Position numbers and translations under genes: made by a program | Shown here: piece by piece, positions 20,547 through 46,103 of the stretch | How the letters are laid out: each line of letters starts with the position of its first letter | Position numbering within the stretch: position 1 is the stretch's first letter | Source of the DNA: Polyangia bacterium | GTDB lineage: Bacteria > Myxococcota_A > Polyangia > Polyangiales > JAUICN01 | Length of the DNA stretch: 64,000 nt | Reading direction: 5' to 3' | Assembly (NCBI GenBank): GCA_030427835.1 | Contig: JAUICN010000002.1 | Coordinates: forward strand, 186,001 to 250,000 | The notes under the pieces: model-generated | Told to the model about the DNA's origin: nothing | The model's input: only the letters and a program-made list of their open reading frames with translations | Databases searched by the model: none

Positions 20547-21728
20547 CTAGCACACGCCCGCGATTTCCTCGGGGAGAGTACGTCGAAGAAAATGGGGAAT
20601 TGGAACACATCGTACGTCTCCTATTTTGAGACTCTTTTTTCCTCCGTAGAGACAAAACAATTGGGCGGGTGGGAACTCCTCCTTAAAGATGCTCAGGCTC
20701 TTGAGATCCTTCTTTTGCAGATTGTTCTTACGCTTCACTTCAAACGCGAATAGGCCCGATTCTCCGTAGAGAACAAAATCTATTTCGTGGCCCTGATGCG
20801 TACGCCAGTAGTTGAGGCTGTGATCAGGAAGTGCGTAGTCCCTCCATGCGCGGAGTTCTTGAAATATCAGTGTTTCCAAGGCTGCTCCTTCTATCTCTTG
20901 GGTGCTGTCTAGTGGGCCCCTGGGCCGAAGTGCTCGAAAGACTCCTGTATCAAAGAAGAAAAACTTGGGGTGGACCACTGTTTTTCTCTTTGCTCGACGT
21001 GTGAATGGAGTGAGACGGGTGGCTAGCAGAATGTCTTCCAATATTTGAAAGTATCCTTCTGCGGTTTTGCGGTTTACGCTGGAGTCCCTCGCGACTTCCG
21101 AGAGGTTGAGTGTGCTGCCCTGGGAGAAACTGGCGGTTTCCAGGAAACGGTGAAAGTCCCCTAGGTTTCGCACAAGCCCTTCGCGAGCCACTTCTTCTTG
21201 AATGTACGTATGGACGTAGCTGGAAATAAAATCCCTGGGATCGTTGTCCAGGTAGACGCTTGGTAGTTGGCCAAACCTCAGGGAGTGTTTGAGGCTATGC
21301 ATTTCTCCTAGCTCACGGGCAGTGAGTGGGTGCATATGGTGAGTTCGGGCGCGCCCCGCCAGCAGGTTTGCATCCGTGGTTTTTAGTTTTCGGGCGCTTG
21401 AGCCTGACATGGCGAACCTTACCTGTTTGGTTTCGATGAGTCGGTGAACTTCGTTGAGTAGGGCAGGTACCCGTTGTATTTCGTCGATGACTATCCAGGG
21501 AGAAGGTTCTTTGTGTGGGGCGGCCCCTTCTAGAATCGATTCAAGTCGTTCGGGTGCGGCGTTGAGTGTCCGATAGGTGTCCGACTCAAGAAGGTCGATG
21601 AATGGAGCGTTTTTGAACGTGTGTCTCAACCAATGGGATTTTCCAGTGCCGCGGGGGCCGAACAGGAAGAAGCTGTGATCACCGGCTTTCCGTAGTCGCT
21701 CAAGATTATCTGGAAAAATGGAGTTCAT
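20547..21728 (-). CDS. AAA ATPase with DUF4143 domain
   Basis: 393 residues. Walker A FLFGPRGTGKSHWL (22-35), Walker B WIVIDEIQRVPALLNEVHRLIE (76-99 region), sensor-type FAMSGSSARKL, and the DUF4143 C-terminal half (RTHHMHPLTARELGE ... FFFDTGVFRALRPRGPLDS ... LETLIFQELRAW ... NYWRTHQGHEIDFVLYGE) with a PD-(D/E)XK-like E-I-D-F ... FEVKRKN set. Proteins of this kind are widespread, mobile-looking ATPases of uncertain role. Its start codon lies inside a 51-base direct repeat (see separate entry), so the 5' end was once duplicated. Confidence 0.9.
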   Translation of the reverse strand: MNSIFPDNLERLRKAGDHSFFLFGPRGTGKSHWLRHTFKNAPFIDLLESDTYRTLNAAPERLESILEGAAPHKEPSPWIVIDEIQRVPALLNEVHRLIETKQVRFAMSGSSARKLKTTDANLLAGRARTHHMHPLTARELGEMHSLKHSLRFGQLPSVYLDNDPRDFISSYVHTYIQEEVAREGLVRNLGDFHRFLETASFSQGSTLNLSEVARDSSVNRKTAEGYFQILEDILLATRLTPFTRRAKRKTVVHPKFFFFDTGVFRALRPRGPLDSTQEIEGAALETLIFQELRAWRDYALPDHSLNYWRTHQGHEIDFVLYGESGLFAFEVKRKNNLQKKDLKSLSIFKEEFPPAQLFCLYGGKKSLKIGDVRCVPIPHFLRRTLPEEIAGVC

Positions 21729-21819
21729 TTCGCCAATTTTCCATGAAAAATGGCATTTGAGAACGAATATCTAGAAAAATGGAGTTCACTTCGCCAATTT
21801 TCCATGAAAAATGGTATTT
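21708..21819. repeat. 51-bp direct repeat spanning the ATPase start codon
   Basis: Copies at 21708-21758 and 21769-21819 match at 48 of 51 positions and start 61 bases apart. The copy nearest the gene carries the real ATG and first codons of the ATPase (minus strand). In the distal copy the start is GTG, in another frame. Each copy contains a quasi-palindrome, CCATTTTTC-ATG-GAAAATTGG, and another CCATTTTT half-site, so the repeat also doubles a possible operator. Confidence 0.8.
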
Positions 21820-30937: not shown

Positions 30938-31026
30938 TTAGATTCTGCACTCTTCTAGGCAAGCACTAGGGTGTTTGGCGGTGGGTGGGGGCTGGACTAT
31001 GTTGTGCCGGGATTGGGAGGCCGCGA

Positions 31027-33084
31027 ATGGCAATGGGGATAAGAACGGGTTTGTTTGGCACAGTGTGTGGCGCGTTGGCGCTCATGGGAGTGGTGGTGAG
31101 TGCCTCTGTGGCGCAGGCTCAATCGTCTACGATTCCTGTGAACATCCAGAGTGATCCTGCGGGGGCGGCGGTGTACTTGGATACCTTGAGCAGTGTGTCC
31201 CTGGGTGTGACGCCCATGGAGCGGGTGCGCCTGCCCCGTGGATCCCACCAGTTGATCTTTGTGCTGGATGAGTATGCCCACTTCACACTGCCCATTCGTG
31301 TGGTGCGCTACCGGGAAACCTTTCGTGCGACGTTGCAACGCCTGGCTGCCATTGAAGTGAACGCCGCGGGGGAGAGTGCCACGGGTGCCGTGGTGAGTGT
31401 GAACGGCGAGCTGTTGGGGCCTGTTCCTGTGCGCAAAACCCTGGACGCGGGCCGCTACCTTGTGGAGGTCAAACGTGAGGGTTACGGGACGTTCTCCCAG
31501 TGGATGGATGTGCGTTTGGGCCAAACAGTGACCTTGCCTGTGATTCTTGAAAAGGTGGCCGAGGACAAGGGCTCGGTTCTTGTGTCTGGGGCCTACCAAG
31601 GGACCCCGGTGTTTTTGGATGGGGCTTCCCATGGCGTTGCTCCCACCGTGATCGACGGCGTGGCCCCTGGTCCCCACGTCGTGGAATTGCGCCCCTTGGA
31701 CGGCATGATGATTCGGCAGGAGGTGTTTGTGACGCCGGGCCAACGTGCGACGGCCCATTTCGGGACCGCAGAGCCCCAAGCCCAGGAGGGAAAGATCCGT
31801 GTGCTTTGCAATGTGGCGGCCGATGTTTTGATCGACGGTGTCATTCACGGGGGTACTCCGCTTGAGTTGGATGGCCTTGAGGTGGGTGAACACATCGTGG
31901 AGCTGCGCGCGGAGGGGTACGCTTCCAAGCAACAGCGTATTCGTATTGAGCAGGGGGAGCGTACGTTGGTTTCCATGCAGTTGGTGGCCGCGGTCGAAGG
32001 GCTGGCGGGTGGTCCTGTGGGTGGCCCGATGGCAGCTCCAGTGGACACTGCAGCGGGGGTGGCTGGCACAGCCCAGGTGGCGGATGTTGCGGTTTTGGAC
32101 TCCGATGGGGCAGCTTCCCAGGAGGTGCCGTCGCGCACCGCCATTTCGGTGACCGTGGATGTGGGCGGAGCGGAGCTCTGGCTCAATGGTAGGTACCTTG
32201 GCCCTGTGCCCTATGAGGGCGTGCTGCCTACTGGGCCCCATCGTTTGGAAGTGCGTCGTGAGGGGTACCGTACCCATGTGCGTCAGGTTCAGCTGACCTA
32301 TTCTGAGGTGCCACGGGAGTTCCAGGTGGAGTTGATCCGTGAGGGTGAGCTTTCCTCCGAGGAGGCCGAGCGGGGTGAAATTCGCCGGTTTCGACAGAGC
32401 CGTGCGGCCGTGAGCCACGCCGCTGCGGCGATTCCCCAGGATCAGGCGGTGTTGGATATGTCCCTGGGTTGGCCCTACGCGGCCGAGGCTCGGCTTGGGG
32501 TCGGTATTTTTGACAACCTTGAGGGTGGTTTTGCGGTGCGTTCGCTCTTTCGACTTACGGAGTTTGAGGCCCGTGCCAAGCTTGCCGCGCGACCGATTCG
32601 CCAGGTGTCCGGGGCGGTGCAAGCTCGAATCGGTGGGGGGCTTGGCCCTAGCCGAGATGCCACCCGCACTGAGGTGATGTTGGCACCCATGGGGGAGGAC
32701 CCAAGCGAGCACAACGTCAACAGTTTCTTCGCATCCCTCGAGTTGCTCGGTTCCTTGCATTTTAGTGAAGAGGGCGCGTTTACCCTGTGGATTGCGGAGG
32801 ACTTTTCCACCGACCGCTACGACTGGGCGGAAGACGATGCCAAGACCCTGGTGGTGAGTGACGTTTCAGGTGCGGGGACGGGCGGGCGTGATGGGCGACA
32901 GAATCTTGCCCGCGTGCGCTTTGGCGGCGCCCTTGAACTTGTGATCAACCGGCATTGGAATGCCTGGGGTGTGCTCGAGGGGATTCTTCTGGGCAAGGGC
33001 CGCGCCATTTACGGCGATGCGTTCCGGTTGGGGTTGGGCGATTCGGAGCTTTACTACCGGGCCGGCCTCACCTACAAGTTTTGA
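31027..33084 (+). CDS. PEGA-repeat protein with C-terminal outer-membrane beta-barrel
   Basis: 685 residues from the ATG at 31027, chosen because GGGAGG (about 31014) precedes it at normal spacing and it gives a signal peptide MAMGIRTGLFGTVCGALALM ending VAQAQ; the frame is open back to 30985. Five PEGA-type beta repeats follow (for example PVNIQSDPAGAAVYLDTLSS, VLCNVAADVLIDGVIHGG, ISVTVDVGGAELWLNGRYLG, each ending in a R-x-E-GY unit). A linker (about 440-490) leads to about 200 residues of alternating strands that end in YYRAGLTYKF, the terminal aromatic signature of outer-membrane barrels. Role: surface-anchored adhesion or wall-binding is plausible but unproven. Its stop codon overlaps the first arm of a structured repeat. 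Confidence 0.82.
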   Translation: MAMGIRTGLFGTVCGALALMGVVVSASVAQAQSSTIPVNIQSDPAGAAVYLDTLSSVSLGVTPMERVRLPRGSHQLIFVLDEYAHFTLPIRVVRYRETFRATLQRLAAIEVNAAGESATGAVVSVNGELLGPVPVRKTLDAGRYLVEVKREGYGTFSQWMDVRLGQTVTLPVILEKVAEDKGSVLVSGAYQGTPVFLDGASHGVAPTVIDGVAPGPHVVELRPLDGMMIRQEVFVTPGQRATAHFGTAEPQAQEGKIRVLCNVAADVLIDGVIHGGTPLELDGLEVGEHIVELRAEGYASKQQRIRIEQGERTLVSMQLVAAVEGLAGGPVGGPMAAPVDTAAGVAGTAQVADVAVLDSDGAASQEVPSRTAISVTVDVGGAELWLNGRYLGPVPYEGVLPTGPHRLEVRREGYRTHVRQVQLTYSEVPREFQVELIREGELSSEEAERGEIRRFRQSRAAVSHAAAAIPQDQAVLDMSLGWPYAAEARLGVGIFDNLEGGFAVRSLFRLTEFEARAKLAARPIRQVSGAVQARIGGGLGPSRDATRTEVMLAPMGEDPSEHNVNSFFASLELLGSLHFSEEGAFTLWIAEDFSTDRYDWAEDDAKTLVVSDVSGAGTGGRDGRQNLARVRFGGALELVINRHWNAWGVLEGILLGKGRAIYGDAFRLGLGDSELYYRAGLTYKF

Positions 33085-33206
33085 GGCTGGGGCGAGGGCA
33101 CCTCATCTGGTGCCATCCCCGCACCTCAACGATGCTGGGCATCGCCTCGGCCCTGTCGTCTTCTGCTAGGCGGACACGAAATCTACGGCACCCTCGCCCC
33201 AGCCTC
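33083..33206 (+). repeat. structured intergenic repeat, copy A1
   Basis: About 124 bases starting on the stop codon of the PEGA gene. The outer arms 33083-33102 and 33187-33206 are complementary at 18 of 20 positions (the first 16 perfect). Inside: hairpin GGCACC/GGTGCC (33097-33114), the conserved ACCTCAA, a second hairpin CGATGC-TGG-GCATCG, the conserved CCTCGGCCC, a third helix (TGTC/GACA), and CGAAATCTACGGCA. The 41 bases from CCCTGTCG to GGCAC are identical in A2 while the arms are not, which points to selection for pairing. Strand of action unknown; the plus-strand core orientation is given. Confidence 0.8.
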
Positions 33207-33213
33207 TATGTTG

Positions 33214-33334
33214 AGGTGGAGTGAGAGTACCGCATCTTCCGTCGTCCCCTCACCTCAACGATATTTACATATCGCCTCGACCCTGTCGTCTTCTGCTAGG
33301 CGGACACGAAATCTACGGCACTCTCCCACCACCT
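33214..33334 (+). repeat. structured intergenic repeat, copy A2
   Basis: Second copy, 7 bases after A1, same orientation. Arms 33214-33231 and 33317-33334 pair at 15 of 18 positions with a sequence different from the A1 arms. The core hairpin is CGATAT-TTAC-ATATCG, covarying with A1 (GC to AT on both sides). The third-helix region is identical to A1. Ends 26 bases before the stop of the convergent gene at 33361. Confidence 0.8.
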
Positions 33335-33360: not shown

Positions 33361-34260
33361 CTATTCGTTGGTCGCTACGGTAAGGTTGGGGTACTTGATC
33401 TTGAGTTCGTTGCCCTCAGGGAGCTCGTTCCACCAGTTGGCCACTTCACTGCCGCTCCCTTCTGCGGGTACGATGATGTTTGTCAATAATGGAAAGGTAC
33501 CGTCGGTGAGGAGGTTGTTGAGACGTTCTGTGAGCTCTACTGGAGATGTTTCGCTCACGTTTACACCGGTGGGGTGAGGCGTGATTTGGAGTGTGGCTAG
33601 GCGGTTGAGCCCCAGCAGGTGTCCGAAATGCTGTTCTGTTGTGACTATCCCCAGGGATACCTTGGCTACCGTTTCCATGGATTTGGCAGATGCGCCTGTC
33701 ATGGCTCCGTAGATAGGCAGGTTGAACCCGTTGCCCAGGATTCCTGTGCCACCAGCGTTGTTGTTGGTGCAACTGGTCACTTGGTTTTCGGAAAGGAAGC
33801 CTACGTTGGCTACTTGGGTAAACTCCAGGAGGGACCAGGTGCCTTCTTCTTGGCTGGGCATCCGGAAGATGATGCCCTGGAGTGTTTGTGGATTTTCACT
33901 GATGAACTCGAGATCGAAGGTGTTGTCGATGGGTGTGGCATAGGTGTGGTAGGCGCGACCTGCCAGAGGTTGCTCCAACTCTTGGTCTAGTTTCCCGGTG
34001 GTACTTGCGTTCCATAGCTGTTCCCAGAAGGTCTCGAGACTGAGTTCCTGATCCTGGCTTGCGGCCTTTTTTGCTACGTTTGCCAACTCGACGCCTAGCT
34101 TCTGGCAATCGTTTAGGGATGGAGCGTACTCAGTGGTTTTTGCGCTTGAGTCCTCTGTGGAGGGGCTTGCGCAGGCTTGGGTGAGGGTGAGTAAGGATGT
34201 TGCGAGTCCGAGGAGGGTTGCTGCTGCCCAGCGAGTGTAGTCTGTGTGGTTCAAAGTCAT
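33361..34260 (-). CDS. lipoprotein, unknown function
   Basis: 299 residues. The leader MTLNHTDYTRWAAATLLGLA continues to a lipobox LTQAC (Cys30). The mature protein starts with Ser/Thr-rich sequence, then a helical part (SLNDCQKLGVELANVAKKAA), and later shows TWSLLEFTQVANVGFLSENQVTSC and ITPHPTGVNVSETSPVELTERLNNLL. Two cysteines (52 and about 167) may form a disulfide. No family recognised. Base composition looks less GC-rich than its neighbours. It is convergent with the PEGA gene; structured repeats lie between them. Confidence 0.75.
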   Translation of the reverse strand: MTLNHTDYTRWAAATLLGLATSLLTLTQACASPSTEDSSAKTTEYAPSLNDCQKLGVELANVAKKAASQDQELSLETFWEQLWNASTTGKLDQELEQPLAGRAYHTYATPIDNTFDLEFISENPQTLQGIIFRMPSQEEGTWSLLEFTQVANVGFLSENQVTSCTNNNAGGTGILGNGFNLPIYGAMTGASAKSMETVAKVSLGIVTTEQHFGHLLGLNRLATLQITPHPTGVNVSETSPVELTERLNNLLTDGTFPLLTNIIVPAEGSGSEVANWWNELPEGNELKIKYPNLTVATNE

Positions 34261-43138: not shown

Positions 43139-44425
43139 ATGAGTACGATTGTCATGCCTTCCCTTGGGGAAAGTGTTTCCGAGGGCGAAATTGGGAAATG
43201 GTTGGTCACGGAAGGCCAGCGGGTGGAGAAGGATCAGCCCCTCGTGGAGGTGTTGACCGACAAGGCCGACAGCGAGATTCCTGCCACGGAAGGTGGTGTG
43301 GTGACCAAGATTTTTGCCGCCGAAGGTGATGTCATCGCCGTGGGCGACAACCTTTGCGAGCTAGATCCTGCAGGCGAGGCCACCGCGGGTGCCCCGGCGG
43401 AGGCCGCGGGCGATTCGGCCACTGCAGATACTTCTACCGGGTCCGGAGCTGCGGATTCGGACGTGGTGAGCTCCCCTTCGGTACGCAAGTTGGCCCGGGA
43501 AGAGGGCGTGGATCTTGGAAAAGTTCAGGGCAGTGGCTCCTCGGGCCGTGTCACCCAGGATGACGTCCGTCGCGCGGCGGATGGTGGAGCCTCCCCCGCA
43601 GCGATTCCACCGGTTCCCCCTGCGGCCATTCCTGCATCATCATCCGCGTCGGCTTCTACGGCCGTAGGCGGTGTTGCTCCCCAACCTGCCAAGAGTGCCT
43701 TTAAGGTGCCCCCCTACAAGCCATCTCCTGGGGATGAGGTGATCCCTTACAACCGTCGTCGACGGATCATCGCCGATCACATGGTTTACTCCAAGCTCAC
43801 CGCTCCCCACGTGGTGACCTTTGCCGAGTGTGATCTCCATGCCGCAGCAAAGGTGCGTGAGGCCCATAAGAAGGCCTTCAAGGCCGATGGGCTGAACCTC
43901 ACCTACCTTTCCTTTGTGGCCGCCGCGACCTGCCGTGCCCTTCGTGAGGTGCGTGCTGTGAACGCCCGCGTGCTTGACGACGCCTACGTGATCTTCCGGG
44001 ACATTAACCTAGGCGTGGCCGTGGATACCCCAGACGGCTTGGTTGTTCCCGTCATTCGCAACGCCGATGAGCTTTCCGTTCGCGGCATTGCCCGGGCCAT
44101 CGATGACATCGCTACCCGCGCCCGCAACGGCGACCTCACCCCGGACGACTTGGCCAACAAAACGTTCACCATTTCCAACCCGGGCCGTAAGGGCAACCTG
44201 GTCGGCGGAGCCATCATCTCCCAACCCAACGTGGGGATTCTGCGCATCGGCGAAATCAAAAAGCGTGTGGTGGTGGTGGAAAAGGACGGCGAGGATCTCA
44301 TGGCCATCCACCCCGTCATGCAAATGGCCCTGTCCTACGACCATCGTATTGTGGATGGTGTGGCGGCGAATGGGTTTTTGTGGACTGTGAACGATATTCT
44401 CCAACGCGCCGACTTCGAACTGTAG
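43139..44425 (+). CDS. 2-oxoacid dehydrogenase complex E2 (dihydrolipoyllysine acyltransferase)
   Basis: 428 residues with all E2 domains. Lipoyl domain at 1-76 with the lipoylated Lys42 in LTDKADSEIPA; Ala/Pro/Thr-rich linker; E3/E1-binding domain at about 116-152 (SPSVRKLAREEGVDLGKVQG, GRVTQDDVRRA); another Ala/Pro linker; catalytic acetyltransferase core ending SYDHRIVDG (His402, Asp406). The start has a strong GAGGA ribosome site. It could serve pyruvate, 2-oxoglutarate or branched-chain oxoacid dehydrogenase; E1 and E3 genes are not in the window, so which complex it joins cannot be decided. Its TAG stop is the first three bases of a structured repeat. Confidence 0.92.
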   Translation: MSTIVMPSLGESVSEGEIGKWLVTEGQRVEKDQPLVEVLTDKADSEIPATEGGVVTKIFAAEGDVIAVGDNLCELDPAGEATAGAPAEAAGDSATADTSTGSGAADSDVVSSPSVRKLAREEGVDLGKVQGSGSSGRVTQDDVRRAADGGASPAAIPPVPPAAIPASSSASASTAVGGVAPQPAKSAFKVPPYKPSPGDEVIPYNRRRRIIADHMVYSKLTAPHVVTFAECDLHAAAKVREAHKKAFKADGLNLTYLSFVAAATCRALREVRAVNARVLDDAYVIFRDINLGVAVDTPDGLVVPVIRNADELSVRGIARAIDDIATRARNGDLTPDDLANKTFTISNPGRKGNLVGGAIISQPNVGILRIGEIKKRVVVVEKDGEDLMAIHPVMQMALSYDHRIVDGVAANGFLWTVNDILQRADFEL

Positions 44426-44543
44426 TCGCCGGAGGTTGCCCAGACCGCGGCTTACCGCTTCGGTCGGGACCTCAACGTATGTTGAATACGCCTCGGCCCC
44501 TCCCTGCAGGGGCGCTCGCGGTCTGAACAACCTCCGGCGACTA
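44423..44543 (+). repeat. structured intergenic repeat, copy B1
   Basis: Starts on the TAG stop of the E2 gene. Arm 44423-44449 pairs with 44517-44543 (25 of 27; a CC/AA internal mismatch). Between the arms: hairpin ACCG-CTT-CGGT, conserved ACCTCAA, hairpin CGTAT-GTTGA-ATACG, conserved CGCCTCGGCCC, and hairpin GCCCCT-CCCTGC-AGGGGC. Same core as the A copies at 33083-33334. Confidence 0.82.
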
Positions 44544-44549
44544 CGTGCG

Positions 44550-44658
44550 TTGTGGTGGGCGTGGCTTACCGCTTCGGTCGGAACCTCAACGTATGTTGAA
44601 TACGCCTCGGCCCCTCCCTGCAGGGGCGCTCGTGGTCTGGGCAACCTCCGGCGACTAC
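44550..44658 (+). repeat. structured intergenic repeat, copy B2
   Basis: Direct repeat of B1 at an offset of 114 bases; the core 44564-44634 is nearly identical to 44450-44520. Its own left arm is degenerate (44546-44563), but its right arm 44634-44657 is a perfect 24-bp inverted match of the B1 left arm 44423-44446. B1+B2 thus form one 235-base element with perfect terminal inverted repeats. The right arm contains the TAG stop of the convergent sctQ-like gene. Confidence 0.82.
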
Positions 44659-46103
44659 GGGGTGGGTTGGTGGACTTGGAAGCCTACTTCGCCGTCTATG
44701 CTTACGATTTCGCCTTGGGCGATGGGGTGGTCGCCTACTCGGAGGGTGGCTTGTACGCCTAGGGTTTGCCCGGTGGCCACGACCTGGCCTGGTTTTAGGG
44801 CGGAGAGTTCGCCTACGGTCATGGAGAAGCGGGCGATTTCTATGGAGACCTCCAGGGGGGCGGCCTGAACTTGCATGACGGGGTCACCCTCCGTGGGGGC
44901 GAGCCATTGGGCCACCACCGGGGTGACGGGTTCGGTGCCGGGGGGGGTGGGAGAGGTGCTTTCGTCTGGGTTTTCTTTGCTGCTGACCACGTGGCCCTCC
45001 TTTGTTTTCGGTGGCCCCTGTGTTGTGGCCGCCAGTCGCAGTTGTTCTGCCGATCGTTGCGCATTGTTGGAATCGTGTTGGGGTGCCATGGCCACGCGGA
45101 CTTCGGTTTCACCTGGAGCAGTTCCAGGTGCCAGCTCGCAGAGCCATGTGGGTACGTGATCGGCGTTTGCTGTGCGTACGTTCAAACGCACAGTCCCGAA
45201 ACATATCGAACGGGAACGATCTGGATCGGGTGCAAGGCCCATCCATTGGGGGATCACCACATCTCCGGGCTTTAGGCCCGCCAGCTGATGGACCTGTAGG
45301 GATCCTCGCCCGGCTTCGATGGAGACGGGCATGGACACCTGTTCAAGACCGCTACCGATGGGGAAGGGCTGGCTGTTTGGCGGAGGTGGTTTTGAGGGGT
45401 TTTGTTTTGATTGGTCTGTTTTAGTTTGGGGCCACACCACGCCATCCGGCATCCATACGCGCACCCTCCCTTGAATGTCTTTGCCGGTGACCTCGATGGT
45501 CATGGCACAGTGGGCCTGGCTGCTTGCTTCCGGTTGGGTAGCTAGGGGTTCGAGCTCCGATGGTCGCGTGTGGATTTGTTCGATCAACAGACCCGCATGG
45601 AGGGCCTGGAGAACATGCCCCATGCCAAGCGCCAGCACACCCCGCTCCACTTCCAGAAGCTCAGCGGGGCTTGCTGGAGGAATGTCCGCATCCGAACCCA
45701 GCAGTGTGTGCACCAGGTACCGTGCCAGTACGGGATCCAACTCGATGTACCCGCAGCGGGCGCCCCCCGTGGGCCAGCTCACCAGGCCGACCACAAAGGG
45801 GGCCGACCAGGCACGGAGCATCTCTGCCATGGAACGTACCCTGTGGGCATGCACAACTCGGGCCTTTAGCTCCGTGCCCCACAGGGCCTGCGCCCGTTGT
45901 ACAAGCTGGTGGTGGTTGGGTTCCACTAGGGAGAAAAACTCCCGTACGGCAGCGGTTACGGTGGCGGCCTGCACGCCTTCCAAGGATCGCAGGATTTCCA
46001 TCGGAAAGGGTTGCACCCGTGGTTCCTCAAACATCCTTCGGTGGTCAAACACCACGGGGCGCGTCACTTCGCTGGAAGGGGGCTCTGAGCTCACCCCCAC
46101 CAT
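44655..46103 (-). CDS. type III secretion cytoplasmic-ring protein, SctQ/FliM-N-like
   Basis: 482 residues. The N-terminal 220 residues have a FliM/SctQ-type alpha/beta domain (RRMFEEPRVQPFPMEILRSLEGVQ, YIELDPVLARYLVHTLLG). Two SpoA (FliMN C-terminal) domains follow: about 245-320 (VSIEAGRGSLQVHQLAGLKPGDVV) and about 405-480 (APLEVSIEIARFSMTVGELS, LKPGQVVATGQTLGVQATLR). Pro/Gln-rich linkers lie between. Such proteins form the sorting platform of the injectisome or the flagellar C-ring. The next same-strand gene upstream (47102-47785) is a SctP/FliK-like ruler, but no other secretion gene is in the window; SctQ is favoured over FliM, with moderate certainty. Confidence 0.8.
   Translation of the reverse strand: MVGVSSEPPSSEVTRPVVFDHRRMFEEPRVQPFPMEILRSLEGVQAATVTAAVREFFSLVEPNHHQLVQRAQALWGTELKARVVHAHRVRSMAEMLRAWSAPFVVGLVSWPTGGARCGYIELDPVLARYLVHTLLGSDADIPPASPAELLEVERGVLALGMGHVLQALHAGLLIEQIHTRPSELEPLATQPEASSQAHCAMTIEVTGKDIQGRVRVWMPDGVVWPQTKTDQSKQNPSKPPPPNSQPFPIGSGLEQVSMPVSIEAGRGSLQVHQLAGLKPGDVVIPQWMGLAPDPDRSRSICFGTVRLNVRTANADHVPTWLCELAPGTAPGETEVRVAMAPQHDSNNAQRSAEQLRLAATTQGPPKTKEGHVVSSKENPDESTSPTPPGTEPVTPVVAQWLAPTEGDPVMQVQAAPLEVSIEIARFSMTVGELSALKPGQVVATGQTLGVQATLRVGDHPIAQGEIVSIDGEVGFQVHQPTP

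Follow-up and report, generated by a model that had tools for sequence, protein, structure and literature searches.

Tandem hairpin doublets beside stop codons in a Polyangia genome: probable copies of a mobile repeat that is patchy across phyla and a likely relative of ERIC

The window, by which we mean the whole 64,000-nucleotide stretch of Polyangia DNA that was analysed, contains two tandem doublets of long hairpins, one at 33 kb (A1 and A2) and one at 44 kb (B1 and B2). The explanation that we favour, and hold to be probable, is that both doublets belong to a non-autonomous mobile hairpin repeat with a patchy distribution over several bacterial phyla, probably wider kin of the enterobacterial ERIC/IRU. 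The repeat would be MITE-like and about 120 nt long, with each copy forming one long imperfect hairpin. Its tip carries a tandem GA/GA internal loop beside a G.U pair, to which many relatives would add a conserved outer internal loop. The arms drift fast yet stay paired, so that lineages, and even neighbours, come to have different but self-complementary arms. Relative to the better-folding strand (the GAGG strand), copies would land or survive right after the stop codon of an opposite-strand gene. Many are flanked by convergent genes, and some form tandem doublets with a spacing of 114-130 nt. The two loci comprise:

30985-33084, plus strand: gene with a PEGA domain, its stop codon adjoining A1
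33083-33206, minus strand (the RNA strand): element A1, a hairpin, from arm pairing and the minus-strand fold
33124-33149, minus strand: A1 tip, reading CCTCAACG-stem-CGCCTCG on the plus strand, a pattern present in 4 of 4 copies
33151-33191, plus strand: identical 41-mer in A1, an exact match to that in A2
33212-33334, minus strand: element A2, a tandem copy about 129 nt on from A1, from alignment, fold and arm pairing
33253-33279, minus strand: A2 tip, with an apical stem unlike that of A1 yet paired, from motif and fold
33281-33321, plus strand: identical 41-mer in A2, an exact match to that in A1
33361-34260, minus strand: convergent gene without a Pfam match
43139-44425, plus strand: 2-oxoacid dehydrogenase E2 acyltransferase gene, whose stop codon abuts B1
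44422-44544, minus strand: element B1, arms 44422-44449 and 44517-44544, starting on the E2 stop codon
44470-44495, minus strand: B1 tip, CCTCAACGTATGTTGAATACGCCTCG on the plus strand, also found in other genomes
44546-44658, minus strand: element B2, a tandem copy with its right arm at 44631-44658
44584-44609, minus strand: B2 tip
44655-46103, minus strand: convergent gene with a FliM/FliN C-terminal domain (FliN-like), whose stop lies inside the B2 right arm

At 33 kb, the stop codons of the convergent PEGA gene and the gene without a Pfam match enclose the doublet. A preliminary description had placed the start of the A1 left arm on the PEGA stop codon, as at the 44 kb locus, and the open reading frames do end at 33084 and 44425. 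It was also right that A1 and A2 share an exact 41-base block; at up to three mismatches this block has two matches in the window against a chance expectation of 0.00. The A1 arms (33083-33102 and 33187-33206) form 18 of 20 Watson-Crick pairs, as described, a level reached by 0 of 20,000 shuffles, and 20 of 20 when G.U pairs on the minus strand are counted. On that strand the A1 tip has tandem GA/GA beside G.U pairs, and the fold is more stable (-76.3 kcal/mol, compared with -65.4 kcal/mol on the plus strand). Pairing of the A2 arms had been put at 15/18; they do pair, at 14/20 in the ungapped register (equalled by 28 of 20,000 shuffles), more weakly than those of A1. The arms had further been called unrelated, and this does not hold. 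Without gaps, the left halves of the two elements (33088-33133 and 33217-33262) agree at 76% of positions, and in register the 5' arms do so at 13/18 and the 3' arms at 12/18. Among the 18 arm pairs, 12 are unchanged, one differs on one side, three are compensatory and two are broken in A2. Since the arms are homologous and three changes are compensatory, their divergence is ordinary covariation. The identical 41-mer beside sequence that is 24% diverged is best read as a tract of local conversion or partial duplication between neighbours.

The B1 arms are 93% complementary over 28 nt, and the element folds to -93.8 on the minus strand compared with -78.7 on the plus strand. The right arm of B2 is 96% complementary to the left arm of B1, compared with 93% for B1's own right arm. 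The preliminary description had held that arms without complementarity would speak against it; such a copy exists in part, as B2 shows no pairing with its own left flank. A further loop, ..GUAAGCC.., is common to B-type copies.

How widely does the tip occur in this genome? The pattern CCTCAACG-stem-CGCCTCG has four matches genome-wide, every one in the two doublets, against a chance expectation of 0.00 in the window. Further copies, whose existence the preliminary description had left to be looked for, are present. A model made from the four A/B tips only (R2) finds a third tandem doublet (C9:67770 and 67890, E 2.6e-5) and a match at C15:20721 (E 0.013); its weaker matches take in family C, a fixed-arm family of about 165 nt with the same tip. 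The doublet spacings in this genome are 129, 114 and 120 nt. The training set of a second model (R3) leaves out L156, which is identical to L145 over 53 nt, together with A1/A2 and one copy of family C, these last three for having been aligned out of register. R3 gives A1 a weak score of 16.2 bits (E 1 in 844 kb) and A2 is absent from its listed matches, so the 33 kb pair is tied to the family only through the tip that it shares with B.

Family C is itself MITE-like, with fixed ends CTAGACCGC.. and the same tandem-GA tip. Copies stand at L058 1247, L060 8492, L061 18295, L065 15413, L075 17907 and L084 8668, and one at L138 folds to -90.0 and -51.7 kcal/mol on its two strands. A further repeat subfamily has a tip like GCAGGCGTAG..CTACGGCGAGC (L053 8231, L055 17918 and L085 4770, all on the minus strand).

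Copies also occur under the names of distant bacteria. One scan of genome contigs for the tip of the 44 kb B type (CCTCNNCGTATGTTSAATACGSC), with one genome per species and 84,980 species, gave 14 contig loci with names from several phyla: Bacillota, Acidobacteria, Syntrophaceae, Desulfovibrio, Deltaproteobacteria, Smithella, Oxalobacter, Kaiserbacteria, Campbellbacteria and unnamed bacteria. Nearly all of these names belong to metagenome bins, so host labels of single loci may be wrong. The search fixed the tip letters and left the hairpin and outer loops free. Most of the loci form one long hairpin with differing arms and internal loops in common (L146 does so in part and L154 does not), and the GAGG strand gives the better fold in 13 of the 14, with L154 the exception.

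In other genomes R2 finds matches at E 0.003-0.05, and R3 at E<=0.5 finds at least 93 copies in genome G104 and at least 73 in G098; these are lower bounds because 150 first-look candidates were scored per genome, they include training copies that match by construction, and chance may account for about 0.5 in each genome. The distribution of the family is patchy across phyla. At E<=1e-4 and reduced sensitivity, the one match among 282 genomes of this phylum is the genome itself, and two other phyla give 3 of 118 and 2 of 286, the centre genome being counted in each. Among 96 genomes (this one and relatives in its order), four match R2 at E<=0.01, with this genome among them; R2 matches in G023, G080 and G032 were rejected as members after folding. 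A short-motif pattern search of the 96 genomes was uninformative because coding matches in large genomes swamp it. Viral contigs gave seven matches to the longer motif, about the chance expectation, with the full hairpin absent, and none to the B tip or family C. A motif search of plasmids was without a match, no Rfam family scored above its gathering threshold, and among the papers listed by literature searches there was no description of such hairpins beyond enterobacteria.

The wider set argues for mobility. We took 670 kb around matches, which yielded 68 copies; comparisons of flanks, of folds without the tip and of ERIC words, and the full-length profile HMM, cover the elements that lie far enough from a contig end and do not have long tips. 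Relatives in G098 and G104 include pairs up to 96% identical whose 80-nt flanks align at background level. Because some hosts hold dozens of copies that are up to 96% alike with unrelated flanks, the element is taken to be mobile. These relatives resemble MITEs in being dispersed, with unrelated flanks and no coding capacity; the window itself has two doublets only. Six tandem doublets occur among the 68 copies, with a spacing of 118-130 nt. By eye, a few G104 copies showed no clear target-site duplication. Neither an empty site nor a transposase was seen for the hairpin family, and we count this against our explanation.

Contact with a stop codon is a general feature of the family and not a coincidence. 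Read on the GAGG strand, the hairpin has its 3' edge against the stop codon of an opposite-strand open reading frame. With frames called mechanically and a range of 54-76 nt from the tip that was picked after the distances were seen, 24 of 68 copies have an opposite-strand stop there, compared with 3 of 68 in the flipped orientation and with a mean of 2.3 (largest 13) for random intergenic points in 500 rounds. The tip-to-stop distances in the window are 52 and 57. Convergent genes are the commonest context (22/72), and other contexts and overlaps with open reading frames are also common.

The arms covary, a point that the preliminary description had raised, both between A1 and A2 and in two larger sets. 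In 17 aligned G104 copies, 94.3% of cells are paired, and in 15 of 36 pairs both partners have changed. The covariation score, equalled by 0 of 500 shuffles, is 0.33 compared with 0.05-0.08 for slid structures. Ten copies of a separate hairpin family in the own genome, family D, are 95.8% paired, with covariation at 22 of 29 pairs and 0 of 500 shuffles as good. The hairpin family is also asymmetric between strands. The GAGG strand is the better fold in 60 of 72 cases, and in 47 of 68 once the tip is cut out (p 0.001). Consensus energies differ between the two strands, at -61.1 compared with -36.0 and at -58.2 compared with -46.2. Counts of G.U to A.C depend on which strand serves to infer the structure, being 40:4 and 31:3 with the GAGG strand and 17:12 and 8:14 with its complement. 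Because of this bias we rely only on the pairs common to both, where the counts are 15:4 and 8:3. We infer that an RNA hairpin of the GAGG strand would be the object of selection. It may act at mRNA 3' ends, in stability or termination, by analogy with what has been reported for Yersinia, where ERIC is described as destabilising upstream mRNA in an orientation-dependent manner through an RNase E site (PMC2229807).

Several other histories could give paired arms beside stop codons. In the one proposed by the preliminary description, the core was copied and the arms were replaced as pairs. The 41 identical bases next to diverged arms suggest as much, but arms that are homologous in register and carry compensatory changes refute the idea for A1 and A2 as worded, and we give it next to no credence. 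Alternatively, the hairpins could be bidirectional transcription terminators that arose on the spot between convergent genes and multiplied by local copying, with no mobile family behind them. Both doublets do begin on a stop codon and are flanked by convergent genes, and the convergent context is the commonest elsewhere. Against terminators stand the near-identical copies at unrelated sites, the same tip under the names of several phyla, the frequency of other contexts and of overlaps with open reading frames, and the lack of a T run behind the A1 arms, which make this history quite improbable. Somewhat less improbable, though still unlikely, is that DNA template switching corrects imperfect palindromes and so keeps the arms paired with no function in RNA. 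Arms are often perfectly Watson-Crick, as in family D, and covariation alone cannot separate RNA from DNA. What speaks for RNA is strand: the fold asymmetry persists without the tip, the consensus energies differ between strands, and G.U exceeds A.C at the pairs inferred from both.

If the doublets are copies of a mobile hairpin repeat, is ERIC related to it? ERIC is a long-standing typing target. We fetched E. coli ERIC by its primer sequence; it is a 127-nt hairpin with the tip CCCCAG-GA-GCUUAC..GUAAGU-GA-CUGGGG. A1 (124 nt), B1 (123 nt) and many family hairpins (117-128 nt by fold) are of the size of ERIC/IRU/RU-1 (about 120-127 bp), and both kinds are single long imperfect hairpins, dispersed and intergenic. 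By our own reading of ERIC, the tandem GA/GA tip loop beside G.U is common to ERIC, A, B and most members. Many cross-phylum members may also have its outer loop, AAGGC/AACGCAG; AAGGC and AACGCAGC occur in 44 of 80 at up to 2+1 mismatches, and the 8-mer AACGCAGC stands 3' of the tip in 5 of 12 family lineages. Unlike ERIC and these members, A and B are, by eye, without the outer loop AAGGC/AACGCAGC. Five ERIC loci entered the word count, the script having found no tip in the sixth (L249); AAGGC is exact on the 5' side in 5/5, and AACGCAGC is exact in 1/5 and has one mismatch in 4/5. A descriptor with both words exact matches one ERIC locus (L240) and nothing in 1.6 Mb of shuffled sequence on both strands; it was written after ERIC had been seen, and 13 of 80 family members pass at this exact level. 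In ERIC, too, the stop of an opposite-strand gene can lie at the hairpin's 3' edge: at 3 of 6 distinct E. coli loci, those of ybhI, cusC and a DUF6708 gene, the gene's end lies 0, 5 or 17 nt beyond this edge. The differences are in the hosts, the apical stem and the arms; a 2024 review gives the range of ERIC as Enterobacteriaceae and Vibrionaceae (PMC10969869).

We regard ERIC as likely kin of the cross-phylum hairpin family, a kinship that is not proven. That the cross-phylum hairpins are real and ERIC a mere look-alike is the less favoured reading, unlikely in our view yet the strongest of the alternatives. It is favoured by the failure of three models (R3, R2 and a full-length profile HMM) to recover ERIC, and it has to set aside the match in size and in the tandem-GA tip with G.U, the exact AAGGC in all five ERIC loci with a tip, AACGCAGC at 0-1 mismatches and the same stop-codon polarity. 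Granted kinship, we tentatively suggest, as a bolder claim that we would not yet back, that ERIC could represent, in enterobacteria, the local branch of an old superfamily of mobile RNA hairpins that has spread horizontally and whose hosts include Patescibacteria, Acidobacteria and Desulfobacterota. Placement directed by stop codons and a constraint on one RNA strand would then point to movement or upkeep via a structured transcript. A cross-phylum set of relatives with conserved loops would offer comparative data for finding the mover and a loop-binding partner, and would also let placement behind stop codons be tested.

Other known elements are less close. The hairpins resemble REP/REPIN as high-copy extragenic palindromes that are often paired, but the units here are about 120 nt, whereas one account puts REP/REPIN units at 20-40 bp (PMC3733652). 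By eye, no T run of an intrinsic terminator follows the A1 or B1 arms on either strand. Integron attC sites end in the boxes RYYYAAC and GTTRRRY, which the A1 and B1 ends, again by eye, do not fit, and attC was rejected. A retron reading was dropped, as were ideas from presumed likenesses to self-cleaving ribozymes and group II intron domain V. Rickettsia palindromic elements are mobile palindromes that can lie in frame within genes, as family D does in a dnaE2-like gene; the window copies differ from them in being intergenic, and the likeness drawn here is one of description.

Family D has a conserved core; its long arms, of 13-26 perfect base pairs among listed copies, differ from copy to copy. 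Its sites are L084 10727-10807, 13173-13253, 15244-15324 and 8574-8640, L085 11335-11413 and L060 412-503, and in the own genome also C27:42074, 149150 and 149316 and C29:44134. Two of its hairpins lie in frame inside a DNA polymerase III alpha (dnaE2-like) open reading frame (L084 9976-13644, minus strand) that adjoins ImuB- and RecA-like genes, and one of these hairpins sits in an insertion inside the PHP domain match.

Elsewhere in the window, an A+T-rich 55-nt direct repeat (21704-21819; two copies 61 nt apart, 93% identical) lies at the 5' end of an AAA/DUF4143 gene. Between 12288 and 24129, about five long paralogous open reading frames follow one another on the minus strand, with repeated segments at a spacing of about 1.8-3.8 kb.
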